Part shown: in pieces, positions 12,947 to 37,594 of the stretch
How the letters are laid out: each line of letters starts with the position of its first letter
Position numbering within the stretch: the stretch's first letter is position 1
DNA from: a virus
Direction: 5' to 3' (one strand)
IMG/VR virus record: IMGVR_UViG_3300009314_000004
Location: 62,001-126,000 of that record
DNA length: 64,000 bases
The notes under the pieces: model-generated
What the model saw: the letters and a program-made list of their open reading frames with translations, nothing else
What the model was told of the DNA's origin: nothing
Databases searched by the model: none
Position numbers and translations under genes: made by a program

Positions 12947-13720
12947 CTACTTCTTAGAATCCCGCAACACCCGCTCCGTCACGGCTCCCAAAATCCCAGC
13001 TCCAAAAGCCCCGGCAACCCCCCGGCCGACCACTCTCGGCAGCCACAACTTGGGACGGCGCAGGACTTTTCTGTACGTGCGCAACTTCAGAGGTGATCCT
13101 TTGGCCTTGAAGAACACCGTTTCCGGTACTTGCTTAGCCGCCGCAGTCAACCCCCCTACCCCCGCTACCAGGGGAATAATCGAGCCTCCCTTTTTTTTCT
13201 TGCGTTTCAGGCCGTAGCCAATGCTCCCCGCTGTCACAGCTGCCGCCGCCAATCCCGGTACCGCCCTGGCAGCAAACGCCCGGCCAAACACCTTACGCAT
13301 CCCCGCAGCGGTCAATTTCTTCCCCGACTGGGCCCGCTCAAGGGCGTACTCCACGCCCCCTTTGCCTCCCGAGTAGACAATGCCGCTGGCCAGGATCTTG
13401 GTCATCCCCCGAGCTCTTCGGCCGGGGTCGCCGGACTTCAAGTCTTTCACGCCGCTAACGAATATCGGAAAAGTCGCTGCCCCTACCGCTACTCCGCCAG
13501 CCGCCCGGGGAAGTCCTCGCCTGCGGAAGGAGGCAAGGAGCCGCTTCATTCGGAAGGCTTCCCGCACCCGTTTCCGCTGCATGCGGCGGAGGACCCCTCC
13601 CTCTACAGCGTGCTCAATAGTTCCCTTGGGGAGGTCGGCCATGACAGCTTTGAGGCCCCCCGCACCGATGAGGGCAGCCATGGACTTGCTTTGCCTGTCC
13701 TTCACCGAGCTGACCTCCAA
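12947..13720 (-). CDS. basic Gly/Ala-rich protein downstream of terminase
   Basis: 257 residues if translation begins at the TTG at 13720, which has GGGGAGA seven bases upstream; an ATG at 13681 is an alternative with a weaker ribosome site. The protein is very basic, with several short Gly/Ala hydrophobic stretches (AAGGVAVGAATFPIFVSG) that could insert in membranes or pack as glycine zippers. No EKxA motif. Function unknown. Confidence 0.45.
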   Translation of the reverse strand: MEVSSVKDRQSKSMAALIGAGGLKAVMADLPKGTIEHAVEGGVLRRMQRKRVREAFRMKRLLASFRRRGLPRAAGGVAVGAATFPIFVSGVKDLKSGDPGRRARGMTKILASGIVYSGGKGGVEYALERAQSGKKLTAAGMRKVFGRAFAARAVPGLAAAAVTAGSIGYGLKRKKKKGGSIIPLVAGVGGLTAAAKQVPETVFFKAKGSPLKLRTYRKVLRRPKLWLPRVVGRGVAGAFGAGILGAVTERVLRDSKK

Positions 13721-13808
13721 ACGCAGCTCTCCCCACGCTTGCGGGGAGAAGCCGTGCGAGATAGGGCCGTTTGGCCTGATACTCCTTTCATTACCTCATC
13801 CACCTCCC

Positions 13809-15509
13809 TTATGTCAACTGGAAAGATGCCGCCGGGAACATGTCGCTGCGCGGATACACCAAATGCGACGCCAGGAGACAGTTGAACATAGCATGGAAGT
13901 AGTCATCCGTCTCATTCTCACTGTGAATGTACCGCACCTTTCCCTTTCTGTCCACTTCCGCCTTCACCGCCTTCAAGTCCTGGTACCAATGGTGCGCCCG
14001 CAAATCCGCCATCCGGGGGAGCTTGAAACGGGAGGGGGTCATCTTCATCGCCGTCACCACATTGGTGAGCATCTCGTCTCGGCTGACCTTCACAATGAGG
14101 TCGTGGGGGGCAAACTTGATAGGGGCGTTCTGGTTGACATACTGGACCTGCACGAACCGCTCCGCCCCGAATATGCTGACAAGCATCCGGTTACGCACGT
14201 ACCCCATTCCAGCGTCCGCTCCCAGCTTGGCGATGCGCACTTGCCGCAGCAACGGCAGGAAGGGAAGGTAGGCGTCCACTTCAGTCCCCACCCGGTACTC
14301 CTCCAGGTCCGGGAGCCCTAACTCGAAGTAACGGAAGCCCCCTACGAACGTAAAGATGTCTTTGATGTACGCCCCGAACACGATGACTGTGGCGGATTGG
14401 CCGCCAGCGCCCCAGTCGACGCCCACGAACATGGGGTACACGCCGGCCCGAGCCAACACGTTATCCTCAGTATTGGGCAGCTCCGCATCGCTGATCTTCT
14501 CAATCAGGGCGTCGGTGAAGACCTGCCGGGCCTGCGTCACGGACAGGGCGAAGGACTCCTGCATGGTCTCGATTGGCCGCTGCTCCATGCTGGTCACGAT
14601 GTCGTCGTAGTCAGTGTAGGGGGCGGCCAACTGAGGCAGCCGGAAGGCGTGCCAGGTGCGGGGGGACTGGGTGCCCGTAGTCCGCAGCCACTTCCCCTCC
14701 AAGGTGTCAATGAGCCTCCCACACTTGTCGCAAATGGGGCCGGACCGGGAGAGGTTACGGGGGGTAAGAATGTTCCAATGGAAGGAGTTCATATTGATCT
14801 GGCCCACCCCGCTGGACATCGACCGGCAAGAGCAAGGGATGCCCCACTCATGCTGGACGGAGTACTTGTCCCAGTACACCCAGGCAGTGTTGTCAGTGGA
14901 CAAGGGTGTGGCCGCATGGAGCTCATACTTGTAGGGGGAGTGGTGGAGCGAATGCTGCAACACCGGCACCACCTCCAACTGCACCAGCTCAAGCTCGTCC
15001 ATCTCCAACATGTCAGCAGGCACACCACGAATTCGGGCGGCGTCACCAAAGGCGGTGCCTGTCAGGATGCGGGAGCCAGTGTAGCTCTCCTTCTCCCGCC
15101 GGTTGTACATCAGCTGGACACCCCGCGTGTCGTAGATGCTCCTGAGGAACTCGGAGTGTTTGATGAACCCGTCCAGCTTCCAGTGGGAGAACTCCATCGC
15201 TTGGGTGAGCGTCCCCGAAGTGTACTGGACGGTCATAGTCTGCAAAGTAGAAAGCAGGAGGGGAATTACCGCCAACGAGGTCGATTTTTCCAGTTGCCGG
15301 CCCCACAGAAAAAACATCTTCCTCATTGCCGGAAAGCTGTCCACAATCTGCCGGAGGAAAGGGCGGTCTTCATAACTGAGAGGCACCACCCCACTTGGAG
15401 TTTGGATGTTCAACAAAGTGGGCGCTAATTCAGACAGCGGAATAGGGGGCAACTCCAAAATTTCCTCTTCCGACTCCTTGGGCGGTAACTGCCTGAACGG
15501 GAAAAGCAA
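13809..15509 (-). CDS. terL: terminase large subunit (DNA packaging ATPase-nuclease)
   Basis: The enzyme powers DNA translocation into the prohead and cuts packaged DNA. A Walker A variant GRQLEKST lies about 70 residues from the start, and a Walker B ADMLEMDE follows about 110 residues later. A CDKCG zinc knuckle sits in the middle. The RNase-H-fold nuclease begins with FVGVDWGAGGQS, with further acidic residues (GADAG, then ENETDDYFHA). The zinc knuckle points to the GpA-like terminase branch. The frame is open up to 15563, but a TTGCCT-N18-TATAAT promoter lies inside that extension, so I place the start at the TTG at 15509, which has AAGGGGGGACCTC upstream (566 residues). Confidence 0.9.
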   Translation of the reverse strand: MLFPFRQLPPKESEEEILELPPIPLSELAPTLLNIQTPSGVVPLSYEDRPFLRQIVDSFPAMRKMFFLWGRQLEKSTSLAVIPLLLSTLQTMTVQYTSGTLTQAMEFSHWKLDGFIKHSEFLRSIYDTRGVQLMYNRREKESYTGSRILTGTAFGDAARIRGVPADMLEMDELELVQLEVVPVLQHSLHHSPYKYELHAATPLSTDNTAWVYWDKYSVQHEWGIPCSCRSMSSGVGQINMNSFHWNILTPRNLSRSGPICDKCGRLIDTLEGKWLRTTGTQSPRTWHAFRLPQLAAPYTDYDDIVTSMEQRPIETMQESFALSVTQARQVFTDALIEKISDAELPNTEDNVLARAGVYPMFVGVDWGAGGQSATVIVFGAYIKDIFTFVGGFRYFELGLPDLEEYRVGTEVDAYLPFLPLLRQVRIAKLGADAGMGYVRNRMLVSIFGAERFVQVQYVNQNAPIKFAPHDLIVKVSRDEMLTNVVTAMKMTPSRFKLPRMADLRAHHWYQDLKAVKAEVDRKGKVRYIHSENETDDYFHAMFNCLLASHLVYPRSDMFPAASFQLT

Positions 15510-15533
15510 GAGGTCCCCCCTTTTCGTCGTGGT

Positions 15534-15563
15534 ATTATAGCACTTAGTCGCCTTGAAAGGCAA
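15534..15563 (-). promoter_or_regulatory. sigma70-type promoter for terminase
   Basis: On the minus strand TTGCCT (15563-15558), an 18-base spacer and TATAAT (15539-15534). Transcription would start near 15527, giving a leader of about 18 bases before the TTG start at 15509. Confidence 0.65.
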
Positions 15564-15645
15564 CCCTAACTACGAGGAGTACGCAACAGCCCTGAACAAG
15601 GAGCGCTCCCCCCGTCCTGCGGGCCCAGGGGAGACGTAGCCACCA

Positions 15646-15682
15646 GCACAAGGCTAAAGAAACTCGTTTTTTAACCTTGTGC
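15646..15682 (-). terminator. hairpin at the end of the biosynthetic operon
   Basis: Inverted repeat GCACAAGG (15646-15653) / CCTTGTGC (15675-15682) with A/T-rich complementary inner arms. It overlaps the stop codon of the ATP-grasp/QueC-like gene and precedes the terminase promoter, so it may separate the two transcription units. The classical U-run is weak. Confidence 0.45.
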
Positions 15683-17476
15683 CGGCACCGCTCGGCGAAT
15701 GCACATCTCACACCGGCCGCAAGGGGAGCCGTTCTTCTGAGGAAACCAACATGACCAGGTCCGCTTGAGGATTGGGAGGTACTCCCGTTCTTCGCTGACG
15801 GCCAGCATGTGAGCCTTGGTACTCCTGATAAGGGGGAACACAAAGGGGCGGAAAATCTCGAGGGCCTTGTCTGTCAGCTCCGAGTAAGGTTTCAGCCGAA
15901 TTCCCTGGGGAGTATCCACCACGTCGCTGCGGAGGAGCTTCTCCGCCCGCCCCCCCACCTCGATGCACAGCTCCATCTCCCCAAAGTGCTTAGCGAACCG
16001 GCAAAACGCCTCGTACTGCCTGCCCATCCTCTCCTTACCCGTGCCGCCGTACCCGATCTGTTTGGCTGCGGCAGTTACCAGGTGGTCGCCGGGGATGCCG
16101 TGAGATATCGAGTGGTCCCCCGGCCGGCCAACGTGCATGGTGGGGAGCACCTTACTTCGAGGGAACCTCTTCCGCAACAAGGGCCGGAGGGCCTGCATGG
16201 TGACAATTTCGGACATTTGGTTCTTGCGCATGTCAAGGGCGCTGGCCAAGTACACTGGGAGCACCTCTGCCCCCCCGTCCAGCAATTGGCAGATGCGGAA
16301 CGTGGAGTCCCACCCCCCGGTCCACAGGACCGCCACGGGCCGGTCTCCCCCCACTGCCCGCATGTGCATCTCCCGCCCGGAAACCAAGGCCAACTGCTGC
16401 TCCTTATGCACGACCATCTCCGGATTGGCAATACCAGTGGACTTTCGAAAGGCGATATCGATGGTGCGGCTCCCCTTCCCCGCCATGCCGTAGCAGGCGT
16501 TGATCTCCCATACCACCAGGTCGCCCTCGGGGGTGTACGAGTAGTCTACCGCCCCCGCATCCAACCCCACCGCCCGGGCAGCTCGGAGTAGTATCTCGTC
16601 CCGGGCGGGGTCCGCCTCAGTGAACAAGCGCTGATTCTCCGCCACTGAAACAGGGCAACGCACTCCCACGGTGTGCCCCAGAGTCACTATCCACTGGTCG
16701 GAGAACATTGCCTGCCTGGGAATTACAGTGCCGCCGGCAATGTAGCAGCGGTATTTGCTGTAGAACCCGTCTCCCCGGCGCACATCGATATACTCCACTG
16801 CCAGGTCCAACTCAGGGTGCGCTTGGCGAATCTCCCGTTCCTCTTCCCGGGACCGGGCCAGGTACATGGAATTCCCCTGGCTCATTTTGCGGTCCCTCCG
16901 CAAAACAACCGGGTAGGGCAACCGCACTTCCTCCTTGGGGCCCAGCCGCTGGGACTGGGGGCACTTGATGCCCGCCTCCGCCCACTGCTGTAAAGAAGCG
17001 TGATGCCCGCACGCCTTTGTGGGTATCCCACTGAACACCGGGATTTTCAACTCCCGAGCCCGGGCCAGCAAACGCCGAGAGCGTTCCCAGAAAGGCCAAG
17101 GCTCGTCGCACGCCTCCCACCCGTGCGGCCATAGGAGGATGAGGTCGTAGCTGCGCAACTCTTCTTCCGGCAACTCGGGGTCTTCGCACAACGACCACTC
17201 CCAATGGAGGTCGTCCAGAATGCCCATGTGCAAAGCGGTCATGTAGGCCAAAGTTGCCCGCACGTATCCTACATGGAGGACGAAAAAAAGGGCCTTCATG
17301 CGGCGGGGGACCGAAGTAGGGCGGGCGCTCCCCCGCATCACTCCGTGCGGCTGCGGTTGGGTAATGTAATCGGGTCCGTTGATGACGGGGCGGGGGCGGC
17401 GCACAACCCGGGGCTGCCCTGAAGGGGGCAAAACTACCACTGGTCCCCGCCGCCTGCGCGGCCGCCGTCGTTGCAT
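15671..17476 (-). CDS. ATP-grasp / QueC-like PP-loop fusion protein
   Basis: A 601-residue two-domain protein. After a basic Pro/Arg N-terminal extension of about 60 residues comes an ATP-grasp domain (about 60-370) with VVLRRDRKMSQGNS, VEYIDVRRG, and VVWEINACYGM as the metal-binding end. Residues 383-601 are a QueC-type PP-loop nucleotidyl transferase: WTGGWDST at 385-392 and a C-terminal zinc cluster Cys576, Cys586, Cys589, Cys592 in SPCGRCEMC. QueC makes preQ0 by ATP-driven amide then nitrile formation; ATP-grasp enzymes join carboxylates to amines. No other preQ0 genes are present, so this fusion probably modifies another substrate. First in map order but last gene of the operon; start ATG has GGGGGTGCC. 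Confidence 0.78.
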   Translation of the reverse strand: MQRRRPRRRRGPVVVLPPSGQPRVVRRPRPVINGPDYITQPQPHGVMRGSARPTSVPRRMKALFFVLHVGYVRATLAYMTALHMGILDDLHWEWSLCEDPELPEEELRSYDLILLWPHGWEACDEPWPFWERSRRLLARARELKIPVFSGIPTKACGHHASLQQWAEAGIKCPQSQRLGPKEEVRLPYPVVLRRDRKMSQGNSMYLARSREEEREIRQAHPELDLAVEYIDVRRGDGFYSKYRCYIAGGTVIPRQAMFSDQWIVTLGHTVGVRCPVSVAENQRLFTEADPARDEILLRAARAVGLDAGAVDYSYTPEGDLVVWEINACYGMAGKGSRTIDIAFRKSTGIANPEMVVHKEQQLALVSGREMHMRAVGGDRPVAVLWTGGWDSTFRICQLLDGGAEVLPVYLASALDMRKNQMSEIVTMQALRPLLRKRFPRSKVLPTMHVGRPGDHSISHGIPGDHLVTAAAKQIGYGGTGKERMGRQYEAFCRFAKHFGEMELCIEVGGRAEKLLRSDVVDTPQGIRLKPYSELTDKALEIFRPFVFPLIRSTKAHMLAVSEEREYLPILKRTWSCWFPQKNGSPCGRCEMCIRRAVPAQG

Positions 17477-17486
17477 GGCACCCCCG

Positions 17487-18803
17487 TCAGCCCACTAATG
17501 GGCGACCGATGGACCAATAGGTGAATCCCGCCGCCCTCATTTCCTCCAGGCGGAACAAGTTGCGGCCGTCGAAGATCACCGGGGTGTTCATGGCCTCCTG
17601 AACTGCACCTAAGTCCGCCCCCTGGAACATCCCCCACTCGGTCATAATGGCCAGCGCATCCGCCCCCGCCACCGCAGCGTACAGGTCACCCGCAAAGGTG
17701 ACCCCCGTAGGAAAAAGCTCCTGTGCTTTGGGCATCGCCGCCGGGTCGTACGCAACAACTTCAGCCCCCTGCGCCAACAACTGGACCAACAGCTCCCGTG
17801 CGGGGGCTTCCCTCATGTCGTCGGTGTTCGGTTTGAAAGCCAGCCCCCACACGGCCACCCGCTTCCCTGCAAGCCCACCCCGGTCCTTGAAGTAGCTGAT
17901 AAGTGAGCGCCCTACCAATTGACGTTGCTGGGTGTTTACTTCATCGACACTGTGCGCTATGCGTAGAGGAATATCGAGCTCGTTGGCCATGCGCAGCAAG
18001 GCACGCACGTCCTTGGGAAAACAGGAACCACCGTACCCGGCGCCGGCGAACAGGAAACGGTCCCCGATGCGGGCGTCCGCCCCCATCCCTCGGCGGACGG
18101 CGTCGACATCGCCGCCTACCGCAGCGCACAAGTCGGCCATCTCATTCATGAAGGAGATTCGCGTAGCCAACATAGCGTTGGCTCCGTACTTGGTAATCTC
18201 GGCACTCACTGCGTCCATGAACAAGATACGGCCGGTGCGCCGGTAAAAGGGGGCGTAGAGCGTCCTCATTACTGCCTGGGTAACGGGGCAACTCGAGCCG
18301 ATGACGACGCGGTCCGGATTCAAGAAGTCCGCAACCGCCGTGCCCTCCTTGAGAAACTCGGGATTGGAGACCACCTCGATGGCCTCCCCGGCAGCCGCGC
18401 GGATAATCGCCGTAACTCGGGCGTTGGTGCCGACCGGCACGGTGCTCTTCAAGACCACTATTTGGCCCTTGGACACAACCTCCCCGACCTGCTGCGCTAC
18501 CGCGAGGACGTTGGAAAGGTCCGCCGAGCCGTCGACATCGGAGGGGGTACCCACAGCAATGAACAGCACCTCGGACACCTTAACCGCGTCGTGCAAGTCG
18601 GTTGTAAATCGAAGGTTCCCTGTGGCCAACGCCCTACCCAAGCGCTGCTCCAAGCCAGGCTCGTAAATGTGAGGTACTCCCCGCGTCAAATTTTCCACCA
18701 CGGCGGCGTTGCTGTCGACGCCGACAACGCTGTGGCCCTTTTCTGCAAAGCCAACCGCAGCGACCAAGCCTACGTACCCGGTTCCTACCAGTGCTATCTG
18801 CAT
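17487..18803 (-). CDS. ugd: UDP-glucose 6-dehydrogenase
   Basis: A 438-residue, full-length member of the UDP-glucose/GDP-mannose dehydrogenase family, which oxidises UDP-glucose to UDP-glucuronate with two NAD+. It shows the Rossmann start IALVGTGYVGLVAAVGFA, STVPVGTNA, NPEFLKEG, the catalytic GYGGSCFPKD with its cysteine, and FKPNTDDMREAP. Start is the ATG at 18803 with GGAGG eight bases upstream. In this operon it would supply a uronic acid donor for the glycosyltransferases. Substrate could also be GDP-mannose, though the motifs fit UDP-glucose better. Confidence 0.9.
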   Translation of the reverse strand: MQIALVGTGYVGLVAAVGFAEKGHSVVGVDSNAAVVENLTRGVPHIYEPGLEQRLGRALATGNLRFTTDLHDAVKVSEVLFIAVGTPSDVDGSADLSNVLAVAQQVGEVVSKGQIVVLKSTVPVGTNARVTAIIRAAAGEAIEVVSNPEFLKEGTAVADFLNPDRVVIGSSCPVTQAVMRTLYAPFYRRTGRILFMDAVSAEITKYGANAMLATRISFMNEMADLCAAVGGDVDAVRRGMGADARIGDRFLFAGAGYGGSCFPKDVRALLRMANELDIPLRIAHSVDEVNTQQRQLVGRSLISYFKDRGGLAGKRVAVWGLAFKPNTDDMREAPARELLVQLLAQGAEVVAYDPAAMPKAQELFPTGVTFAGDLYAAVAGADALAIMTEWGMFQGADLGAVQEAMNTPVIFDGRNLFRLEEMRAAGFTYWSIGRPLVG

Positions 18804-18818
18804 CACTACCTCCGTCAA

Positions 18819-19058
18819 TTACTGAACTAACCGCAGCCCCGCCACACGCGCGTGTAGTGAACTCAACGCCCCCACTTCAGGGGTCTCCGCCCAGCGCACA
18901 TAGGCTTTCACTCGCGTTGCCAGGAAGCGCAGCAACGCCCATTGCTCAGTTGCCGACAACGTTGCCGGAGGGACGTCGTGCGAGTAAGGGAAGTTCACCA
19001 GGGTCTGGTTCACAAATGCGGCTACCGGTGACGACCCAAGTATCTGGAAAACCCCCAT
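18819..19058 (-). CDS. small protein of the biosynthetic operon
   Basis: 79 residues, start ATG at 19058 overlapping the upstream stop (TGATG) with GGAGCTGAGTG ahead. No motif recognised; helical with a few aromatic residues. It might be an accessory or binding partner of a neighbour, and is a conceivable but unsupported precursor peptide. Confidence 0.45.
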   Translation of the reverse strand: MGVFQILGSSPVAAFVNQTLVNFPYSHDVPPATLSATEQWALLRFLATRVKAYVRWAETPEVGALSSLHARVAGLRLVQ

Positions 19059-19789
19059 CACTCAGCTCCATCCTTAATTATTTGCGCAGCCTCTGCCCGC
19101 AACCATTCCCCTACTACTGGTACGAAGTCGTCGCTGTAGTGCGTAGGGCTCACCAACGCCTGCGCCAAGTCAGCAGGGAGTAGTAGCGACGGGTCCACTA
19201 CCCGCACCCCCTCTACACGGCAAGACCGCAGCAACGCAAGGAGGACGTCCCTCCTTCGGCTCCTCCCGGGATTGCCGAAGGGGGCAAAGTCAGCGTTGAA
19301 GTGCGACACCACCAGCAAGGGGCACCCCAATAACCGACGCAGAACCGAAAGGTCCCGATTAATGTCGTTGACGTCCAAGAACCTCCGGTGTATCCCCCCA
19401 ACCAACGGGGGCGCCCCCCCGTTGCCCCCTACTAAATGATCGCCGTCCCAGCTCATTTGGTACTTGTCCAGCACCTGCTCCTTGACACACCACCGGTGCA
19501 GCACGTACCGTCCCAGTTCGGCCTGCCGGAAGGTGCTGATTTCCACTACCGCCACAGCCAATTTGGGAACGGGGACGGGCTCCTGGGGATGCTGCAAGAT
19601 GAGATCCCGCAACTCGCAGGGAATCCTAACCTCGCCGACGACGTAGCCGACGAGTTGGGCTGCCTCACCCGAAGTGTGGGTCAGACCGTACAGGTCAGCG
19701 AAGCTATGCAATTTAGTTGGGCGGGGGAAACCCTCCCCTCCCCAAGCTAAGGGGGTGGCCACCCGGCAACTGCCAATGACCCCAATCAT
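19058..19789 (-). CDS. SGNH/GSCFA-like putative esterase or acyltransferase
   Basis: 243 residues. It begins MIGVIGSCRVATP, the G-S-C block that opens GSCFA/SGNH-type hydrolases with the nucleophile serine, and near the C-terminus has SPTHYSDDFVPVVG, which can provide the Asp/His pair. Between them VVSHFNADFAPFG matches an internal block. Such enzymes add or remove acetyl groups on glycans. Coupled by ATGA overlap to the methyltransferase upstream. Family assignment is moderate; substrate is unknown. Confidence 0.55.
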   Translation of the reverse strand: MIGVIGSCRVATPLAWGGEGFPRPTKLHSFADLYGLTHTSGEAAQLVGYVVGEVRIPCELRDLILQHPQEPVPVPKLAVAVVEISTFRQAELGRYVLHRWCVKEQVLDKYQMSWDGDHLVGGNGGAPPLVGGIHRRFLDVNDINRDLSVLRRLLGCPLLVVSHFNADFAPFGNPGRSRRRDVLLALLRSCRVEGVRVVDPSLLLPADLAQALVSPTHYSDDFVPVVGEWLRAEAAQIIKDGAE

Positions 19790-20796
19790 GGTTTGTCCCC
19801 ACTAAGTTGCACCGACAAGGGGGAAAGCAAAGTACCTTCCGGATACAACGCAGCAACCGAGTCAGGGACAGCAACATGATTGGTCGTTGTCATCGCCACA
19901 TTGGCCAAGCCGACATCCCGGAACAACCTCTCCCATTCGTGCGCCCGCAACCGATTCTGTGGGTAACCTACGCAATTGTCCCCCACTGCTCGGCGATAGT
20001 CTTCTTCCGACCAGGTCAAGAAATCCAGCGGCCCTTCGCCTAAACCGTGCCCGTCGATACCGATAGTTGCCAAGAGCAGCGCTCCCGGACGAAGTAAGTC
20101 GTACATACGTTGCACGCAAGCAGCTGGATTAGGGACGTGCTCCAACGTCACTACGGAATACACCAAGTCAAAACACGACTCCCCCGGAAAGTCCTCTACT
20201 CGAGTAGCGTAACGAACGCACCCCAAAGCAGGCGATAGGTCGGGAACATCAACAAAACGAGTAAGTAGGGAAACCAACGCTTGCAAATTCGTCTGGGGGC
20301 CCTCGTCTAACGTGGCCCCACTGAAAACGGCCCCCCGCATACCGCACGCAAGCAATTGCCCGTGATGGTCCGGGCCGAACCCCATCTCGAACACGTCTCG
20401 AGGGTCGTGGCCCCGCAACTTTCGGTACCACCTGAATTGCTGAGCTACCCCCGCCATATTGTGGAGCGGGCTCCCGCTGGTGTCCGCCCCTCGCAGTACC
20501 GTTCGGGCAACAAGGCCCTCCACTGCTGCAATATCAGCGTACCACCCCCGAGCCTGGGCAACTCGCCGTACCAGGAAACGCCCCACACAGGGAGTGCACT
20601 CAAGAGGGGTACCCTTATCTGTTAGAACCACCGGAATTACTCGGTAAGTGCCTAACAATTCCTGCAAACTACGGGGGACCGCCGCCCACTCCTCTACACT
20701 GGTGAGGAAGAGGGTACCGCCATAGGTCCGCTCGAACCACTGAGTGAACTGGTCCAACCCACAAGCCCCTGTTACACACTCTATAGGCGTATCCAT
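19786..20796 (-). CDS. SAM-dependent methyltransferase (paralogue A)
   Basis: 336 residues. The C-terminal two thirds form a class I methyltransferase: VFEMGFGPDHHG (motif I), then FDLVYSVVTLEHVPNP (motifs III/IV) and a later LRPGALLLATIG. The segment LDFLTWSEEDYRRA near residue 265 also occurs in altered form in the second methyltransferase of this operon. The N-terminal third has no named domain. Probably methylates the operon product; the acceptor is unknown. Confidence 0.8.
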   Translation of the reverse strand: MDTPIECVTGACGLDQFTQWFERTYGGTLFLTSVEEWAAVPRSLQELLGTYRVIPVVLTDKGTPLECTPCVGRFLVRRVAQARGWYADIAAVEGLVARTVLRGADTSGSPLHNMAGVAQQFRWYRKLRGHDPRDVFEMGFGPDHHGQLLACGMRGAVFSGATLDEGPQTNLQALVSLLTRFVDVPDLSPALGCVRYATRVEDFPGESCFDLVYSVVTLEHVPNPAACVQRMYDLLRPGALLLATIGIDGHGLGEGPLDFLTWSEEDYRRAVGDNCVGYPQNRLRAHEWERLFRDVGLANVAMTTTNHVAVPDSVAALYPEGTLLSPLSVQLSGDKP

Positions 20797-20810
20797 CAGC
20801 CAAAAATCTC

Positions 20811-21422
20811 CTAATCGACCAACGTGTGCAGATAGGCAGCTCCTGACTCTCCGTACCTGGCCGAGTAGGGCCCGCCTGCCTGCTCCCAGGCAATAACCTC
20901 AGCAGGGTCTGCAATCAAGTCAGCAACCGACTTCAGCCCTCGCGAAGCAAAGCCAAACAGGGGGTCGAAAAACACGTAGCCCCCCTTCAGTAAAAACTCC
21001 ACAACTGTGTGCTGCACTCCTGCCGCATTTGCAATGTGGACGTAGCGGGAAAAATACCCGATAGTTGCCCCCAGGTAACGCAGAGCCAAACAGTACCCGG
21101 CACATGCGGCGACGTCCTCCCCCCGGAACAGCTTAGCCAGGTCGAAATGCTGATGCCAGTCGTCCTCCGGAATGCCAAGCTTAATGTTGTGCCGCACGTA
21201 CCCCATGATAAAGGCAAGGAAGGCGTATTGCGCTGAAGGCACCCACAAGTTATGCACTAGATTGTACACCGCCCCCCAAGGCTGACCTACCAGGTCGACC
21301 CCATAGTTGAACATACACCGGTCCATGTGCGTGCGTGCGCAAGCCAAATTGCGCCGAGCGAGCCTTACCCGAGGTTCTCCCACAACTTGTAGTACTCCGC
21401 ATTGATAAAGTGGTGCGTCCAT
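20811..21422 (-). CDS. transglutaminase-like cysteine protein
   Basis: 203 residues from the ATG at 21422, chosen for its GGGGGGAGTGGCA ribosome site; this overlaps the radical SAM gene by 58 bases, like other overlaps in this operon. A Cys-His-Asp set in transglutaminase-core order is visible: CAGYCLALRYLG (Cys), GVQHTVVEF (His) and YVFFDPLFG (Asp). These folds act as proteases, amidases or cross-linkers. In RiPP clusters such proteins cleave leader peptides, but no precursor is evident here. The substrate is unknown. Confidence 0.6.
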   Translation of the reverse strand: MDAPLYQCGVLQVVGEPRVRLARRNLACARTHMDRCMFNYGVDLVGQPWGAVYNLVHNLWVPSAQYAFLAFIMGYVRHNIKLGIPEDDWHQHFDLAKLFRGEDVAACAGYCLALRYLGATIGYFSRYVHIANAAGVQHTVVEFLLKGGYVFFDPLFGFASRGLKSVADLIADPAEVIAWEQAGGPYSARYGESGAAYLHTLVD

Positions 21423-22357
21423 TGCCACTCCCCCCTGGCAGCGTAGCACCGGTCACACTTGGCGCTCCTAGTATCGAAACGGTACCGTCCCTGCTTGACG
21501 ATTTCCTCCCAGCTGCTCTCAGTCACGTTACCAATCGAGGCGTCGTACCTGTTGCAGCAGGGAAAAACATCCCCAGTGGGGCGCACGTACATGTACTTCG
21601 GGAAGGAACACCCAGGCACAGCCCACACAGGGGAGGCGCCATACTCACCCCCAATCCCGTGGACTGCCCCGAAGGAGATGCCGTGGCCTTCGCAGTAAGC
21701 CTGGGTTTCTTCCAAGCATTGCTGGTACTCCTCGCGTAACCCGTACAGGCTCTCTCCGACCATCTCCTCAGTGCAGACATGCAACGTGTTGAGGAAAATC
21801 CACCGAATCCCCGGCAGCAACCGCAACAAGGGGATCACGTCCCCCATATTGCGGGCCGTAGCCATGTAGGAAAGCCCAACGTAGTTCCACCTACTCAGTG
21901 TGCTAATAGCCTCTCGGACGTTCTCCAAGACTACGTCGAACTTAGCCCCGGTACGCAGCCGCTCAAAGTTGTCCTTGAGCCCGTCCATTGAAAAGGACAA
22001 CGAGTAGGTGTTGCGATTCAACAACGGCCACAGTTCCTGAGCTGGGAAGCGCCACATCCCGTTGGTGTTCAACTTCAAGGCAAACTTCCCATTCATATTG
22101 AGGTAGTCCAGCATCTTCAAGAAGTCGGGGTGGGTAGTGTGCTCCCCCTCCGAATTGATCTCGATGGTCCGATAAGGCGGGAGCTGGTCAATCAGCGCCT
22201 GCCACACGGCAAAGGGCATCCACTCGAGCTTTTTTTTCTCCTTGGTGTGCTGAGACCCGCACATGCGGCAAGTGAGGTTGCACCCGGTAGTTAGCACAAC
22301 ATTAACGGCCTCTTGCGCCAATTGCTCGGTGCGCAACATGTGCGGGTACTCGGCCAT
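21365..22357 (-). CDS. radical SAM enzyme with SPASM-type C-terminus
   Basis: 330 residues. TGCNLTCRMCGSQ near residue 25 gives the CxxxCxxC ligands of the radical SAM [4Fe-4S] cluster. The C-terminal part has CSFPKYMYVRPTGDVFPCC and CDRCY, cysteines arranged like a SPASM domain holding auxiliary clusters. SPASM enzymes modify peptides or sugars. The reaction here is not predictable. Start ATG at 22357 with GAGGGGCGAA upstream. Confidence 0.88.
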   Translation of the reverse strand: MAEYPHMLRTEQLAQEAVNVVLTTGCNLTCRMCGSQHTKEKKKLEWMPFAVWQALIDQLPPYRTIEINSEGEHTTHPDFLKMLDYLNMNGKFALKLNTNGMWRFPAQELWPLLNRNTYSLSFSMDGLKDNFERLRTGAKFDVVLENVREAISTLSRWNYVGLSYMATARNMGDVIPLLRLLPGIRWIFLNTLHVCTEEMVGESLYGLREEYQQCLEETQAYCEGHGISFGAVHGIGGEYGASPVWAVPGCSFPKYMYVRPTGDVFPCCNRYDASIGNVTESSWEEIVKQGRYRFDTRSAKCDRCYAARGEWQWTHHFINAEYYKLWENLG

Positions 22358-22366
22358 TTCGCCCCT

Positions 22367-23356
22367 CTACACAGAACCGTAGGTGATCAGCTCGGTTACG
22401 TCGGCGTCCTCCCCCGTTACCTGGGAGTTCTCCGGGAGCTCGGTACGGTTCCGCACCTCGAACTCGACCTGCATTCCGGCCTGCTTCACTTGTGCCACGT
22501 ACCAAGGCGCCCGCTCCCGGCGGCAGGGGAGGTACCCATGATGGTCCAAGTAGCCAACTTGCGCAGCCTCCCACTCTTCCTGCGTCATGGTCAAGAAGTG
22601 AAGCGGGTGCGGATCTCCGGAAATGCCATGACCGGACAAATCGGTGTAAGCAATGAACTGCCCACCCTTCTTGAGCAACCTCCGCACTTCACCCAGGAAG
22701 CCTTGCATGTTTTCCACGTGCTCCAGGACTACGTGCGCAAAGATGAGATCGTACTTCTTCCGCCGCAAGGGGAACTTCCCCCCTTCGCCCAAACGGTAGT
22801 CCCGAGCAACTCGCCGCTCGGCCTTCTCTATGAAAGAGGCAAGGTTGAGCTTGGCCAGTACCTCCCGCTCCACCTCACGGAGCTCAGGATCGACCTCCCT
22901 CACCGCGGTGACGCCGGCGTACTCCGCCCCCCACATGTTGCAAGCGAGCATTGACCCTACCGGGCTATCGCCGAAACCAAGCTCGAGAACGGTTTTGGGC
23001 AGTTTCCCCATCTTCGCCTCGTAAAGGTCCATATAGAAATTGAGGATGCCTAAGCTGTGAATCATGTTCGGCTGCGCATCGAAAAGGGCCGCCGTGATGT
23101 CTCGAAAGCCCCGGTTGACCTTACGACTGTGCACAGTGAGCAGGTTCCGAGCGGCGGACCACAACGAATCGAAATTGTCAAGTGCTTCGGGGTCGGTGCT
23201 GGGCAGCAAGAAGGCTACCCCGTAGCGTTCCCCCAACAGGGTGGCCAGGGGCCCAGGCTCCTCAGTGACTGCGATGCAGGTGGTGCCTGCTCGCTTTTGC
23301 GTCATCTCAGCGAGAACCTCGGGGAGGTACTCAGGCATGTTGACTTTGATAACCAT
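22367..23356 (-). CDS. SAM-dependent methyltransferase (paralogue B)
   Basis: 329 residues from the ATG at 23356 (AAGGAGAAAGAC upstream), 55 bases inside the glycosyltransferase gene. Class I core with TVLELGFGDSPVG (motif I), YDLIFAHVVLEHVEN and LLKKGGQFIAYTDL. LHFLTMTQEEWEAA parallels a segment of the other operon methyltransferase, and the regions before motif I also align, so the two are paralogues. Probably acts on the same product at another site. Confidence 0.8.
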   Translation of the reverse strand: MVIKVNMPEYLPEVLAEMTQKRAGTTCIAVTEEPGPLATLLGERYGVAFLLPSTDPEALDNFDSLWSAARNLLTVHSRKVNRGFRDITAALFDAQPNMIHSLGILNFYMDLYEAKMGKLPKTVLELGFGDSPVGSMLACNMWGAEYAGVTAVREVDPELREVEREVLAKLNLASFIEKAERRVARDYRLGEGGKFPLRRKKYDLIFAHVVLEHVENMQGFLGEVRRLLKKGGQFIAYTDLSGHGISGDPHPLHFLTMTQEEWEAAQVGYLDHHGYLPCRRERAPWYVAQVKQAGMQVEFEVRNRTELPENSQVTGEDADVTELITYGSV

Positions 23357-24426
23357 GTCTTTCTCCTTTTCGATTGGCACACGCTGCGAAGACAAGCGAG
23401 GAGAGCTTCTGCTGCCCCCATCGGGTCCACCTTACGATAGCGCAGCTGCTGCTTCTCAGCGAGTGCATGGGTGATTGCTGCTGCAAACGTCTCAATTGAC
23501 AAATCCGGGCAACACAACGGGGGAGGGTGCTTATCTATGTTCCCCACATTGGTTGAGACTACTACGTTGCACCCCAACTTGGCCGCCTCGGCGTACAAAT
23601 TGGGGGAAGGGTCGTACATGGAAGGGATGACTACTACTCGCGAGTTGCCCAAAAGCGTCAACATGGTAGCGTGGTCGACCAACCCGAAGTCAATGACGTT
23701 GGGCAAGGGCAGGTTCAGCCGGTCACCGCATACGGCGATGCGCACTTGAGGAAACCGCCGAGCGACCGCCTCCAGCAGCCCCCGGTTTTTCATCCTCCGC
23801 CCCCAATCCGAGGCGGAGAAGCACAAACCGAACTGACGCTCCCGGTAGGGGCGGGCCCATTCACTGTTGATGGGAGGCACAGCAATATCCGGAGTGTAAA
23901 TAACCGAGTCCCGGTGGATCTTGGCTACCAACTTCGCCGGGAAATATTTACGGTAGTAGGCCAAATCGATGGTGCTGTGAACAAGTACGTGGTCGGCACT
24001 CCCAAACGCTACGAAGTCGTTGTTGCCCTCAGGCGGGGGCTCCTGGACTTGGTGGTAGGGCTTGCCTGAGCGCGAGATGAAGTCTACTCCCGACGTCAGG
24101 TACACTTTGGGTACGTCGGTGCGTTTCCGCAGCACCCAAGGCGCATCGTAGTTCTTCCCTACCATCACATCGAAATCACCCGCAAGAAGGGCTGGGTCAT
24201 CCCGTTGGCACCACCCTGTAGCCCGAATTCCCCCGATCCGGTCGGGGTCGCTCCAGTTGCCGGTGATGTCGTAAGGAAGGCCCAGATGCCGGCATTTGCC
24301 GCAGTGGTCAATAGCTACCCCCAGCACCCCGCACCCCAATTGCCGCAAACGCTTCACTGTCTCGTACGCCTCAGTAGAGGCGCCCCCGTAACCAGGCGGT
24401 TGGTTCCACACATAGCAAATCCGCAT
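23302..24426 (-). CDS. GT4-like glycosyltransferase
   Basis: 374 residues, start ATG overlapping the stop of the upstream gene (TGATG). GT-B fold: an N-terminal acceptor domain (YVWNQPPGYGGASTEAYE), then a C-terminal donor domain with SMYDPSPNLYAEAAKLGC, the E-x7-E region that binds the nucleotide sugar. Cysteine-rich patch HCGKCRH near residue 52 is unusual. The last 20-30 residues lie in the overlap with the next gene. Sugar donor unknown; UDP-glucuronate from the operon dehydrogenase is possible. Confidence 0.8.
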   Translation of the reverse strand: MRICYVWNQPPGYGGASTEAYETVKRLRQLGCGVLGVAIDHCGKCRHLGLPYDITGNWSDPDRIGGIRATGWCQRDDPALLAGDFDVMVGKNYDAPWVLRKRTDVPKVYLTSGVDFISRSGKPYHQVQEPPPEGNNDFVAFGSADHVLVHSTIDLAYYRKYFPAKLVAKIHRDSVIYTPDIAVPPINSEWARPYRERQFGLCFSASDWGRRMKNRGLLEAVARRFPQVRIAVCGDRLNLPLPNVIDFGLVDHATMLTLLGNSRVVVIPSMYDPSPNLYAEAAKLGCNVVVSTNVGNIDKHPPPLCCPDLSIETFAAAITHALAEKQQLRYRKVDPMGAAEALLACLRSVCQSKRRKTWLSKSTCLSTSPRFSLR

Positions 24427-26174
24427 CAGTCGATAAACTCCCGAAACCATAACTCCAGCGAAACCAACTTGTACAGCTGACGGTCGAATTCCCCCCGTCT
24501 CAATTTAGTGTGCACGTTAGGGTCGTGCGGGAGGCGCCTGCGCAAGCCTCGAACCAACTCGTCCGCCCACTCCGTAAGTGGCCCCTGAAGCCAACGAGTG
24601 GCCGGCACCACCAACCCTTTTTTGTCCGCCCGCTCCGTGACTGAGGAGGGGACCCCGATTCGCCGACCAACCTCGCGCAGAATCCACTTAGTCTGCCCCT
24701 CAACCAACTTCAAGTGCGGGACAGAGAAACAGAACTGCATGACGTTGGGGTCCAAGTAGGGGCAGAACGCCTCCAGCCCAAATGCGGTGGCGTCGCTCGC
24801 GCCCATGTGCATCTGCGCGGGGTAGGTAAGGTTAAACTCTACGTTGCCGAGTGAATTGGGGAGCTGCGGGAACTCATTGAAGTACCTAGTCACCTGCTCT
24901 CGCTGCTCCCGTCCACTAGTAGGGGAACGATCCGTAACTCGGAGGTGCTGCTCCAGCGGCGACGCTTCAGCCAACTCTGGAGTTGCCCATAAGTACTCAG
25001 CCAACGGCCGGTAGGCATGGCAAGAAGTGGCACCAAGGAACTGCTCCGTCAAGTCCCCCTCACCCGCATGCTGCGCCCCGTACATGATAAGCAAATGCCG
25101 AATGTACCCACTGAGGAGCTCATCCGGCCCATGGCCAAAAACGCAGGAAGAGAAGCCCAACTCCTGCGTCTTCTTTGCCATCATGAAATTGGAGATAGGG
25201 GAGAAAGTGGCAACGATGCCCTCAAGGTTCCGAATGATTTCCGGGAAGTACTTCCTGAAATCATCTGCCGTGGGGCGGACGTAGTGAACTCCGGCCCCAA
25301 TGGAGGCAGCCACCGCAAGGGCGTACTCAAGCTCGTCGAAGGCATCCCCGTACCCTTCGTAGGTGTTGACAATGACCTGTTCTGGGCGCATCAGCGCAGC
25401 CAAGACCGCCGAGTCCAGTCCCCCTGAAACGGTGAAGCCCTGGTTGTCCCGGCGGCAAGTCTCCGCCGACTGGCGCAGCAACTGCTCAAAAGCAACCACA
25501 CTTTGCGTGGGGGAGCCCTGCACAAGGGGGACACGCGGGTGCCAGTACCGGATAGCCGCCGGCGTCGTTGACCCCCAAGCGAAGTGAACAATGTGCTGCG
25601 CGGGGACCTGGTGGATACCTTCAAACATCGTTGCAGCAGCAACGGGGAATTCGAAAGTCCATAAATCCTGGGTAATATGGGGAACGGCGGGCACCAAAGT
25701 CAACAAGGAGCTAATCTTGTTGGCAAAGAGCACACCTCCCTTCTTGTCGACATGGTAATAGAGAACACTGCCCCACGCTGGGTCAACTGCCAACCACAGC
25801 CCTTCGAAGGTTTGCACTACCAGGGCGAACAACCCACGCAACGCAGACACCGTCAGGTACACCCCCATTCCTTCAACCAACGCCCGCACTACTTCTGCGT
25901 CGCCGGCCCCCTTCTTGTGAGGAACGTGGGTGGCAATAAGGGCTTCCCGATTTTGTAAATAGCCGGAGAAGAAAACAGTAGCGTCGCCCAGGGACAAGGG
26001 CCCGCTGGAAACAGTGGGGGGGAGCGTAGCGGCCAAGGCCATCTCCGTACCCTCCTCATAAAGGAGCGGGGCCCCTCTTCCATACCGGTGACGACAAACC
26101 GACACCATCGCCCGAGGGTCACCCTCCCGACGATATACTCCGGCGTAAATCACAAATCCTCCCAATGCGCTCAA
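24426..26174 (-). CDS. asparagine-synthetase-like amide ligase lacking the N-terminal cysteine
   Basis: 582 residues with the two-domain architecture of AsnB-type enzymes: an N-terminal Ntn-hydrolase (glutaminase-like) domain to about residue 195, and a PP-loop synthetase domain with GFTVSGGLDSAVLAAL. True AsnB begins Met-Cys-Gly; here it begins MSALGGFVIY, so the glutaminase nucleophile is absent while the rest of the fold is kept. The same loss is known in beta-lactam synthetase and lasso-peptide cyclase, which adenylate a carboxylate and use an amine already in the substrate. It may therefore form an amide on the operon product. Start overlaps the upstream glycosyltransferase by 56 bases. 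Confidence 0.8.
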   Translation of the reverse strand: MSALGGFVIYAGVYRREGDPRAMVSVCRHRYGRGAPLLYEEGTEMALAATLPPTVSSGPLSLGDATVFFSGYLQNREALIATHVPHKKGAGDAEVVRALVEGMGVYLTVSALRGLFALVVQTFEGLWLAVDPAWGSVLYYHVDKKGGVLFANKISSLLTLVPAVPHITQDLWTFEFPVAAATMFEGIHQVPAQHIVHFAWGSTTPAAIRYWHPRVPLVQGSPTQSVVAFEQLLRQSAETCRRDNQGFTVSGGLDSAVLAALMRPEQVIVNTYEGYGDAFDELEYALAVAASIGAGVHYVRPTADDFRKYFPEIIRNLEGIVATFSPISNFMMAKKTQELGFSSCVFGHGPDELLSGYIRHLLIMYGAQHAGEGDLTEQFLGATSCHAYRPLAEYLWATPELAEASPLEQHLRVTDRSPTSGREQREQVTRYFNEFPQLPNSLGNVEFNLTYPAQMHMGASDATAFGLEAFCPYLDPNVMQFCFSVPHLKLVEGQTKWILREVGRRIGVPSSVTERADKKGLVVPATRWLQGPLTEWADELVRGLRRRLPHDPNVHTKLRRGEFDRQLYKLVSLELWFREFID

Positions 26175-27384
26175 CGAGGCCGTGGAACCGGCTGGCCCAA
26201 CTCCAGGACCGCTGCATTACTTCGCGGTTTTTCCGTCCCCACTTCCGGTGCAGGGCAGCGCACGCCTTGAATGTCTCCAAGGCCTCGACAATGCCCGCCA
26301 CTGAATCCTCCAAAATGAGCACGCCCCCCTGGGAGCAGGCGTGGATCTCCGGGACTAAACCTACGGGAGTTGAAATGTAAGGCAGCCCCGAAGCCGCCCC
26401 CTCCATGATCGGGTTGGGGGTTCCTTCGCTGGTGGAAACACAGACAATGGCTGAAAGTCCTCGGTACCACTCAGGCATGGCTACGTAGGGAATCCTCTTT
26501 CGCGCGATGTCGGCGACGACTAGCTCCACCCCTGAAACTTGCGCTGCCGCCTCCTCTAATTTCTGTAAGTTCTTTACTCCTCGCGCCACTTTGGAGTTCC
26601 CTGCCCAACCAACCCGAAGAACGGGAGACTTCAGCCGATTAACTGAAGGGGTAAACATTCGTGCATCTACCCCATCAGACATGTACTCAATAGGCCGCCC
26701 CAACACCTCGCGCAATTCCTCCACCAGCAGCTGACTTGCCCCCGTGATGATGTCCGCCCGCTCAACTGCTGTGTCGAACTCAGTTCGGTGCCGCTTCCAC
26801 AGATAATGGCTGTACACGCAAAGGACCAAAACGGCCTCTTTTGGGAGCAGGGGAAGGACGTTGCTTGCTGCCCGCCAACGGATTAACGTAACTACCTCGT
26901 ACCCCCGCAAATCCGGAATTGCCGCCGACGGCACTATTTCCACATGCCATGAAGGGGGAAAGTTAGCCGCCATATGACGAGCAATATTGTGGAAGACCTC
27001 TTCCGGCCTATGATAAACCAGTAGGGCCCTCCCCGTAGTACCCAAGCTCAGGGGGAGTGCCGAGAGTTCGCTCAGAGTAACTTCGACATCCGCAGCTGCC
27101 CGAGGTCTACCAGAACTTGTGTCCAAGGGCTTTTTCTGGGCCACTGCTGCTCCACCTGCAACGAACGGGGAGGGGGGGCTGCGCTTAACAACCCCCCCAT
27201 GCCGTACCGGTGTCTTCGCTTCACAAGGGGAGGGGCCCCCCCGATGATTGGGCGAAACCAATGGGCGGCCCCCAGGCCCCCTCACAAGTACAGGGCCTTT
27301 CTTAGAGGGGCGACGTTTCCCCCTCTTTTTTGCCCGCTCCCCTACGAGTGTCCTAGTAATTTTCACGTTGTCGGACCGGGCCAT
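26119..27384 (-). CDS. GT4-like glycosyltransferase with long basic N-terminal extension
   Basis: 421 residues and the first gene of the operon. Residues 1-95 are a low-complexity Lys/Arg/Pro/Gly extension; the rest is a GT-B glycosyltransferase, with LRVGWAGNSKVARGVKN and the donor-site EGTPNPIMEGAASGLP. The extension resembles the N-terminus of the last gene of the operon and is not part of the enzyme fold. It may target the protein to DNA, membrane or virion. Start ATG at 27384 with GGGGGAGTC upstream. Confidence 0.78.
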   Translation of the reverse strand: MARSDNVKITRTLVGERAKKRGKRRPSKKGPVLVRGPGGRPLVSPNHRGGPSPCEAKTPVRHGGVVKRSPPSPFVAGGAAVAQKKPLDTSSGRPRAAADVEVTLSELSALPLSLGTTGRALLVYHRPEEVFHNIARHMAANFPPSWHVEIVPSAAIPDLRGYEVVTLIRWRAASNVLPLLPKEAVLVLCVYSHYLWKRHRTEFDTAVERADIITGASQLLVEELREVLGRPIEYMSDGVDARMFTPSVNRLKSPVLRVGWAGNSKVARGVKNLQKLEEAAAQVSGVELVVADIARKRIPYVAMPEWYRGLSAIVCVSTSEGTPNPIMEGAASGLPYISTPVGLVPEIHACSQGGVLILEDSVAGIVEALETFKACAALHRKWGRKNREVMQRSWSWASRFHGLVERIGRICDLRRSISSGG

Positions 27385-27432
27385 GACTCCCCCAATTCAT
27401 TTAAGTTTTACACTATTACTCCCCCGTGCGCA

Positions 27433-27462
27433 ACTCAAAACTTTCGCCCCATCTGCTATAAG
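27433..27462 (+). promoter_or_regulatory. plus-strand promoter of the shared ACTCAA-N16-GCTATAAG type
   Basis: ACTCAA (27433-27438), 16 bases, GCTATAAG (27455-27462), about 60 bases before the first gene of the plus block. The same layout recurs at 41333 and 57224. The divergent 27385-27522 gap holds this promoter; I see no convincing promoter for the minus operon. Confidence 0.65.
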
Positions 27463-27522
27463 AGAAATGGGAGGAGGGAATTGCCCTCACTCCCAAAATA
27501 GGCTATTTTTATGGAGGGTTAA

Positions 27523-28080
27523 ATGCGCAGCAACTACTGGTTCTTAGTGGAGGTAAGCGGGGTACCACAACGATACGTCCACGAGCAAGTCCGACTTCTG
27601 GCAGGCAAAGTCCAAGGCATAGAAGGGGAAAACTGGGACAAAGAAAGGCAGAAGAGCTCCTTTGAAACAACCTGCCTAGAACTCCTCGGCGACCCAAACG
27701 AGCTTGCTCAGGGCATCGCTACTGCCATTGTCGAGGAATTCTCCTACCTGCGGGTTTCGGTGACGACCTACCAAAGAGAAGAACGCCGGATCTCCGTGAC
27801 AACCAAGGAGGGAGCACCCCCGAACTGCCCGCCGGGGGCATTCTACATGCGTCAGGTGGAGGGGGAGGACGGACCCTACATGGTTTACGGCGAGGTCTTC
27901 GAACTTCGGGGGTTGACTGGCGCCCCCGAATTACCGGACCCGGAGTTCCGGGTGGTGCAAACGTGGTCCCGGAACTGCCCAGCGGTAGGAATATGGGGTG
28001 TAGAGCACCCCGTAAATATGACTCGGGTAACCCGTACGCAGTTCCTCCGGGGGCTCCAAGAAGTTAGAAGGAAATCATGA
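27523..28080 (+). CDS. hypothetical protein, first gene of plus block
   Basis: 185 residues, ATG preceded by GGAGGGTTAA and by the shared promoter. The N-terminus (YWFLVEVSGVPQRYVHEQV) suggests an alpha/beta fold, but no family is recognised. It is the first of about twenty small co-directional genes, a typical early-region arrangement. Confidence 0.6.
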   Translation: MRSNYWFLVEVSGVPQRYVHEQVRLLAGKVQGIEGENWDKERQKSSFETTCLELLGDPNELAQGIATAIVEEFSYLRVSVTTYQREERRISVTTKEGAPPNCPPGAFYMRQVEGEDGPYMVYGEVFELRGLTGAPELPDPEFRVVQTWSRNCPAVGIWGVEHPVNMTRVTRTQFLRGLQEVRRKS

Positions 28081-28220
28081 GATTCAGAGCCAATCACCAA
28101 CCTCACCGCAGACAACGCCAAGCCTGGGCAAGGTGCTCGTGTGGAGGAGTTGCTGCTTGCTTACTGGAGGGTGCCTATGGCAAGCCGGAACATGGAGCTG
28201 TCTCAAAAGCAACTGCGTGA
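28077..28220 (+). CDS. possible small Arg-rich protein
   Basis: A 47-codon frame starts with an ATG overlapping the previous stop (ATGA), with AGAAGGAAATC upstream, but it overlaps the next gene by 44 bases. Composition is Arg/Gln-rich at the start (MRFRANHQPHRRQRQ) with a CSCGG patch. Could be chance. Confidence 0.25.
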   Translation: MRFRANHQPHRRQRQAWARCSCGGVAACLLEGAYGKPEHGAVSKATA

Positions 28221-37447: not shown

Positions 37448-37506
37448 GTCACCCTCCAGGCACCCATTGTAGCACCCCGTACCGGTCCCGGCAAGCCCAC
37501 TTGTAG

Positions 37507-37593: not shown

Positions 37594-37594
37594 A

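Follow-up and report, generated by a model that had tools for sequence, protein, structure and literature searches.

Background

What would a compact set of eleven biosynthetic genes make for a phage, and where would the product be placed? The question is raised by a locus in a 64,000-nucleotide stretch of viral DNA (the whole of which is hereafter called the window; bases 62001-126000 of the 145,296-base virus record IMGVR_UViG_3300009314_000004), where the genes lie on the minus strand from position 27384 down to 15671. As the initial annotation of the window had proposed, this segment is a tight single-strand operon: all eleven open reading frames are intact and agree with their coordinates (Table 1), and the ten junctions between them, in the order of the table, measure -56, -25, -94, +9, -85, +14, -4, -4, 0 and +10 bases, negative values being overlaps.

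Our preferred reading, with a probability of about 0.45, is that the operon provides the phage with a set of soluble enzymes that together make a glucuronate-based glycoconjugate, which would be displayed on the surface of the infected cell. Judging from the protein families, the dehydrogenase would make uridine diphosphate (UDP)-glucuronate from the UDP-glucose of the host, and two glycosyltransferases of family 4 (GT4) would transfer sugars. The ATP-grasp half of a fusion protein, an AsnB-like ligase, or both may attach an amine or an amino acid to a carboxylate group, for which C6 of glucuronate is a plausible candidate; in the QueC-like half of the fusion, a carboxylate may be converted to an amide or a nitrile; and the radical S-adenosylmethionine (SAM) enzyme, two methyltransferases and an SGNH-like protein would decorate the product. 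Because no membrane, priming or export gene was recognised, the product would probably be placed on a host carrier or a host glycan precursor and be displayed by the host machinery. The altered cell surface could, for example, shut out rival phages, the target being the least certain step of the scheme. The gene content is best read as directed to a glycan or glycoconjugate that contains a uronic acid and carries an amide modification, since the QueC-like family has glycan-locus neighbours in bacteria and since, according to the available part of PMC11800379, a TupA-like ATP-grasp domain amidates glucuronate in Campylobacter.

Enzymatic content of the operon

At the level of predicted families, the labels of the initial annotation are firm for the UDP-glucose dehydrogenase, the AsnB-like protein, the radical SAM/SPASM enzyme, the two methyltransferases, one GT4 enzyme and the QueC-like domain, and fair for the second GT4 enzyme (just under its cut-off) and the ATP-grasp half; the transglutaminase-like and SGNH-like labels, which follow from motifs, are weak. 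The Pfam scan covered ten of the eleven proteins (all save that of the first gene), as did the PHROGs and NCBIfam scans (all save the 80-residue protein); automatic gene calling overlooked two genes, the first and that of the 80-residue protein, and truncated the dehydrogenase gene at the border between two pieces.

Table 1. Genes of the operon and the adjoining terminase gene (positions in the window)
Feature	Position	Strand	Supporting match or motif
GT1, GT4-like glycosyltransferase, first operon gene	26119..27384	-	TIGR03088 1.5e-12 (under curated cut-off); Ex7E motif at 320
AsnB-like ATP-dependent amide/lactam-type ligase (predicted)	24426..26174	-	PF00733 2.9e-36; SGGLDS at 250
GT2, GT4-like glycosyltransferase	23302..24450	-	PF13692 6.7e-6, 26.9 bits vs cut-off 27; DPSPNLYAE
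MT1, SAM-dependent methyltransferase	22367..23395	-	PF08241 2.2e-10; ELGFG
Radical SAM/SPASM enzyme	21365..22357	-	PF04055 8.9e-10, PF13186 1.4e-8; CNLTCRMC at 26, CDRC at 301
Transglutaminase-like protein	20811..21449	-	putative Cys120-His147-Asp162 by motif reading
MT2, methyltransferase, MT1 paralogue	19786..20796	-	PF13489 6.4e-7, PF08241 2e-6
SGNH/GSC-like protein, possible acyl transferase or esterase	19058..19789	-	TviD N-terminus 1.8e-5 (weak); GSCR at 6
Small 80-residue protein	18819..19061	-	open frame, 4-base overlap with SGNH-like gene; DUF7853 0.023 (under cut-off)
UDP-glucose 6-dehydrogenase	17487..18818	-	TIGR03026 7e-129 (over cut-off); GGSCF catalytic Cys region
ATP-grasp (~60-345) fused to QueC-like PP-loop synthase (~380-600)	15671..17476	-	PF06508 2.3e-7, PF08443 0.0024
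Large terminase (terL), next gene downstream, outside the pathway	13809..15563	-	22-23% identity to phage proteins

The dehydrogenase scored 430 bits with the nucleotide-sugar dehydrogenase model TIGR03026 (cut-off 189.8); as to its specificity for UDP-glucose versus other nucleoside diphosphate sugars, the best equivalog model, TuaD, gave 465 bits, short of the 700 that it requires. MT1 and MT2 are paralogues (27% identity, E 2e-14).

The AsnB-like protein carries the SGGxDS PP-loop of the synthetases, and its translation more likely starts at an internal GTG behind GGGAGGA. A motif scan and a reading of the start region revealed no Met-Cys, i.e. the N-terminal catalytic Cys of glutamine amidotransferases, in the frame. 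With the loop present but no Met-Cys, the protein, as predicted from its motifs, cannot be a standard glutamine amidotransferase, which qualifies the idea of the initial annotation that the set could make, modify, amidate and attach a uronic-acid product; the idea otherwise agrees with the amide-modified uronate glycan favoured here. Since the amidotransferase Cys is missing and the nearest solved structure is that of beta-lactam synthetase (1jgt, 8e-9), the protein is probably a ligase using ammonia or an amine.

The same protein could be taken for the cyclase of a modified-peptide system, in which it would act on a lasso-like ribosomally synthesized and post-translationally modified peptide together with the transglutaminase-like protein as protease and the radical SAM enzyme. 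In favour are its match to a lasso cyclase model (4e-11), its missing amidotransferase Cys, a plausible triad in the transglutaminase-like protein, and the possibility that the 80-residue protein is the substrate. However, the general AsnB model matches far better (8.7e-42; both models under their cut-offs) and the lasso cyclase match reaches 42 bits against a cut-off of 525; neither a lasso protease family for the transglutaminase-like protein nor a leader-binding domain was found with Pfam or NCBIfam, and the glycosyltransferases and the dehydrogenase are left unexplained, all of which makes a peptide product the most improbable of the readings considered here.

For the transglutaminase-like protein itself, a sub-threshold Peptidase_C58 match (0.017) accompanies the Cys-His-Asp spacing read by eye; it has no PHROG or NCBIfam match, and its structure model has a predicted local distance difference test score (pLDDT) of 39. 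HvyA, an exported transglutaminase homologue, blocks capsule in Caulobacter (available part of PMC4241560); the parallel may serve as a lead only, because the phage protein is devoid of the hydrophobic leader that export would involve. In the SGNH-like protein, the place where we would presume block V to lie reads PTHY, not DxxH.

The dehydrogenase contains a hydrophobic 19-mer above 1.7, at its N-terminal nucleotide-binding strand; no other was found among the operon proteins, and the Pfam, PHROG and NCBIfam scans recognised no flippase, polymerase, exporter or priming transferase in the operon. For these two reasons the operon, as judged from its genes, is not a complete surface-polysaccharide locus, and, as no protein looks membrane-bound, the pathway would need either host export or a cytosolic acceptor.

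The ATP-grasp/QueC-like fusion and its bacterial family

Both its motifs and its structure model identify the second half of the fusion as a predicted member of the QueC superfamily of PP-loop synthases: it has a TGGWDST PP-loop at 386 and a C-x9-C-x2-C-x2-C zinc site (C576, C586, C589, C592), and it matches PF06508 over the cut-off. It is not a canonical QueC, the equivalog model TIGR00364 giving 23 bits against a cut-off of 150.3. The first half matches RimK-like PF08443 (0.0024) and a PHROG (6.8e-4) and has a WEIN motif. The model is mostly above 90 pLDDT in the QueC-like half and poor in the ATP-grasp half, so that the fold matches cover the second half only: Cap9 (Z 12.9, root-mean-square deviation (rmsd) 3.2, 157 aligned residues), QueC (Z 10.7, rmsd 3.9-4.0, 163-167 aligned), LarE (Z 10.7, rmsd 3.6, 151 aligned), QatC (Z 10.2, rmsd 4.1, 166 aligned) and the nitrile synthetase ArtA (Z 9.2, rmsd 3.6, 143 aligned). 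With scores within 1 Z unit counted as tied, only Cap9 stands out.

The QueC fold raises the possibility that the operon serves hypermodification of the phage DNA bases, including synthesis of 7-deazaguanines, through its QueC-like and glycosyltransferase enzymes. Glycosyltransferases, radical SAM enzymes and ATP-grasp enzymes all occur in DNA-hypermodification systems. On the other side, the 145-kb record holds no gene of the TGT/DpdA, QueD (PTPS) or thymidylate synthase type, positive controls having matched, and no TET/JBP gene was found in it, in this case with no control matched; ten proteins were also checked in a further ~38 kb of the phage genome. We regard this function as very unlikely.

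To place the QueC-like half, bacterial genomes were searched with the pattern WTGGWDST[FY], which gave at least 120 stretches. Eighty loci were examined, 79 of which encode a relative of the phage QueC domain at <=1e-2 (77 at 1e-6); this QueC-like family is thus common in bacteria. The bacterial relatives share ~25-41% identity and the same motifs with the phage domain, and the PP-loop and the four cysteines are kept across the aligned family and in the phage (one misframed sequence, L061, was left out). Among viral contigs the exact WTGGWDST pattern occurs in four, two of which are the present phage; the other two contain no further operon relative within a stretch of 6-7 kb. In a limited literature search we found no functional study of this family, the available part of PMC8757827 naming only ordinary queC and that of PMC12419801 containing nothing on QueC.

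Of 122 genes found next to the bacterial QueC-like genes, 88 were scanned, the remainder being mainly short frames chosen by hand. They include 8 TupA-like ATP-grasp, 2 sugar-transfer ATP-grasp, 5 GT4, 4 PGA_cap and 4 flippase-type genes, together about one quarter of the 88 if the families do not overlap. As a control, 88 genes were taken from elsewhere in 12 of the QueC-locus genomes, none of them flavobacterial. Eight families recur there, including ABC transporters (3) and Asn_synthase (2), and the glycan families of the neighbours are not among these eight (in the first 25 of 130 families, so that single members could be hidden).

These neighbours also bear on the proposal that the product is a small diffusible metabolite of sugar and amino-acid type, antibiotic- or signal-like, and not a glycan. 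Such a product would suit an AsnB-like ligase whose nearest structural relative is beta-lactam synthetase, two methyltransferases and a radical SAM enzyme, and a cyanophage cluster of 8-12 genes has likewise been read as a metabolite pathway or as capsule decoration (available part of PMC7824862). It would leave two GT4 enzymes and a UDP-glucose dehydrogenase to be accounted for; moreover, the recurring neighbours of the QueC family are, relative to the control, largely glycan genes, and the three family scans recognised no export or self-resistance gene in the operon. A diffusible metabolite is therefore improbable, less so than DNA modification.

Genome setting and the proposed site of display

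The operon forms the head of a minus-strand gene run that contains terL, which begins 107 bases past the operon end. All 28 genes called in the region that extends from ~2.5 kb ahead of the window to the second gene of the operon lie on this strand. The location "between early genes and terminase" given in the initial annotation holds only loosely: the operon shares the strand of terL, is its next neighbour upstream and heads the run. The terL product is 22-23% identical to proteins of Vibrio, Bacillus and Pectobacterium phages, 12 of 13 of which are annotated as terminase large subunit. We take the virus as a contractile-tailed phage, because matches to a baseplate wedge subunit, a tail sheath (a weak match), GroEL and a family A DNA polymerase were obtained for other genes of the record.

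This position favours a different target, namely that the operon puts a uronate-based unit on a capsid or tail protein. An operon that shares its strand with the structural genes and immediately precedes terL would suit such a role, and cytosolic protein acceptors would need no export, in keeping with the lack of membrane-bound-looking products. A shared strand does not prove a single transcript, however, and in some bacteria the QueC-like family adjoins surface-glycan genes, including flippase-type ones. The gene context thus pulls two ways, the neighbourhood of the QueC family favouring alteration of the cell surface and the place upstream of terL favouring the virion; we consider virion decoration unlikely, although it is the most serious of the alternatives.

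Several observations weigh against display of a glucuronate-based glycoconjugate on the infected cell. Late expression and a virion target fit an operon at the head of the terL run at least as well; no membrane-spanning protein was found among the operon products; the product and its attachment are putative; and no relative with the whole gene set was found. The bacterial association is also narrower than the counts imply: the 8 TupA neighbours probably represent two lineages, six flavobacterial loci and two genes in one Synergistales locus. Flanking genes are 83-93% identical across the six flavobacterial loci and the tally also holds 6 dapD-like genes; since six of the eight TupA genes most probably come from these near-identical loci, the glycan association rests on fewer lineages. 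Non-glycan genes are the majority of the neighbours (113 families matched, many of those displayed with one member), and the phage ATP-grasp half has no match to the neighbours. AsnB-like matches occur in 2 of the 80 loci, no more than in the control (2/88), and dehydrogenase matches in 3 of 80, for which there is no like control. An argument from co-occurrence of AsnB-like or dehydrogenase genes with bacterial QueC (L045, L053, L073, L176 and, ~7 kb away, L110) was dropped, because the control holds as many AsnB-like genes. A still more specific claim is that the product represents a new class of glycan or glycoconjugate, in which glucuronate, on the virion or the host surface, would bear an amide- or nitrile-type group that the ATP-grasp/QueC-like fusion installs together with an AsnB-like ligase free of glutaminase; we hold this to be doubtful.

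A chimeric assembly is unlikely, because the separate contig IMGVR_UViG_3300013120_000767 spans window positions 5674-32357 unbroken, including both operon edges (15.6 and 27.4 kb), at 100% identity in the stretches compared, although the contigs and the record of the window may share reads. Two contigs of 3300009320 also cover the operon, with a single break inside the last gene and a 119-base overlap. The overlapping ends lie at window positions 16946-17064, within the ATP-grasp/QueC gene, and could mark strain variation. No variant copy of the operon was found.

Contig 3300013120_000767 extends 37.7 kb past the start of the record (G332:C1:96364-134075), and this extension has no match to the rest of the record. 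If the contig is not a chimera, the genome of the phage measures at least ~183 kb; the absences reported for the 145-kb record are therefore provisional. Codon usage was compared with that of 54 called genes of at least 600 bases outside the operon, for all operon genes save that of the 80-residue protein. GT1, the transglutaminase-like gene and MT2 are each above only 3 of the 54 phage genes, and 39 of the 54 rank below the radical SAM gene and the QueC fusion; such mixed usage fits assembly of the operon from parts over one recent import.

Other features of the genome include a TnpB-like gene beyond the record (L190:11991-13151; Cas12f1-like TNB 4e-19, OrfB_IS605 8e-8), a helicase-like gene at genome positions 1170-3935 (L007:1170-3935), whose intein-like stretch has a LAGLIDADG domain, and the GroEL gene at genome positions 57332-58999 (L009:17332-18999; PHROG 7e-94), on the plus strand inside a mostly minus-strand block. 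The window also holds seven tRNA genes at 37506-38269, four of them tRNA-Leu with different anticodons, and, on the plus strand at 28141-29199, a PAPS-reductase-like gene weakly resembling DndC, SspD and BrxP.

Search for related operons

The initial annotation called for a search for the same gene order. Among 50,697 phage records, megablast with window positions 13000-28200 gave no match, and the bacterial QueC loci examined are free of the phage gene set. Six proteins were compared with the same records by tblastn: the QueC fusion and MT1 (limit 1e-5) and the transglutaminase-like and SGNH-like proteins (limit 0.01) had no match, and the radical SAM enzyme and the AsnB-like protein had one weak match each (23.9% and 23.1%, respectively). 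In plasmids, searched with two proteins, MT1 had two weak methyltransferase matches and the transglutaminase-like protein none. No relative of the latter was found in 33 genomes reached via the QueC loci or in 299 genomes from a single phylum, and none of MT1 in 150 at 1e-10, these searches being run without a positive control. Scans of viral contigs with the QueC fusion, a 60-residue QueC piece, the radical SAM enzyme, terL, polA and an MT1/MT2 alignment returned only the present phage population; those made with a single sequence are limited to close relatives. Of 17 other viral contigs that have relatives of the UDP-glucose dehydrogenase, one (L032) also has an AsnB-like match. A PADLOC scan of nine proteins for defence systems gave weak matches only (QueC 0.001, viperin 1e-6, mads_2 7e-9), and a defence role was set aside.

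Comparison with known systems

The fold of the QueC-like half is common to Cap9, QatC and QueC. Cap9 belongs to the cyclic oligonucleotide-based antiphage signalling system (CBASS), Cap9 and QatC are components of anti-phage systems, and QueC acts in queuosine synthesis. The operon differs from all of these in the weakness of its PADLOC matches and in the absence of QueD and TGT genes from the 145-kb record. The bacterial WTGGWDST loci resemble it in their QueC-like protein and, in some cases, in adjoining ATP-grasp, GT4, PGA_cap or flippase-type genes; unlike in the phage, their ATP-grasp protein is encoded by a separate gene, and the gene set of the phage occurs in none of those examined. 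The phage version, compact and with its ATP-grasp partner fused, could offer a convenient way into the function of this family.

The closest experimental parallel found for the proposed ligation comes from the HS:2 capsule of Campylobacter jejuni, where the C-terminal TupA-like ATP-grasp domain of Cj1438 forms an amide at C6 of glucuronate (available part of PMC11800379). As in the step proposed here, an ATP-grasp ligase acts on glucuronate in a glycan; Cj1438 belongs to the TupA-like subfamily, whereas the corresponding half of the phage fusion resembles RimK weakly and has no match to the TupA-like neighbours. Bacterial sugar operons also pair an ATP-grasp aminoacyl ligase with a sugar methylase, as described in the accessible part of PMC4000134.

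Among phages, the nearest systems are the sugar clusters of cyanophages, for which the comparison is by description, from the available part of PMC7824862. The 15-gene "lipopolysaccharide" cluster of P-SSM2, proposed to alter the host surface or to act against superinfection, is likewise a large phage-borne set of glycosyltransferases and sugar-modifying enzymes. Clusters of this type have epimerases, sugar kinases and nucleotidyltransferases, none of which was recognised in the operon; in their place the operon has the ATP-grasp/QueC fusion and the AsnB-like, radical SAM/SPASM and transglutaminase-like genes. The cluster of S-SSM6a, the one of 8-12 genes mentioned above (10 in this phage), similarly combines sugar and amino-acid chemistry with methyltransferases; its carbamoyl transferases, halogenase and 2-oxoglutarate oxygenases were not recognised here. 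A limited search of the literature on phage biosynthetic clusters and on QueC-like genes in glycan loci did not find the present gene set described. The initial annotation called a whole set of this kind unusual in a phage; phage glycan clusters are known, and the operon adds amide-forming and radical enzymes to those described for cyanophages in that part of the source. By its two GT4-like enzymes and its UDP-glucose dehydrogenase, encoded in a record that also includes terL and a baseplate gene, the operon is of the same general kind as the cyanophage glycan clusters and would be a more elaborate relative of them, with few enzyme types shared by description; should its product end up on the virion or on the cell surface, this would matter for the competition of phages for hosts.

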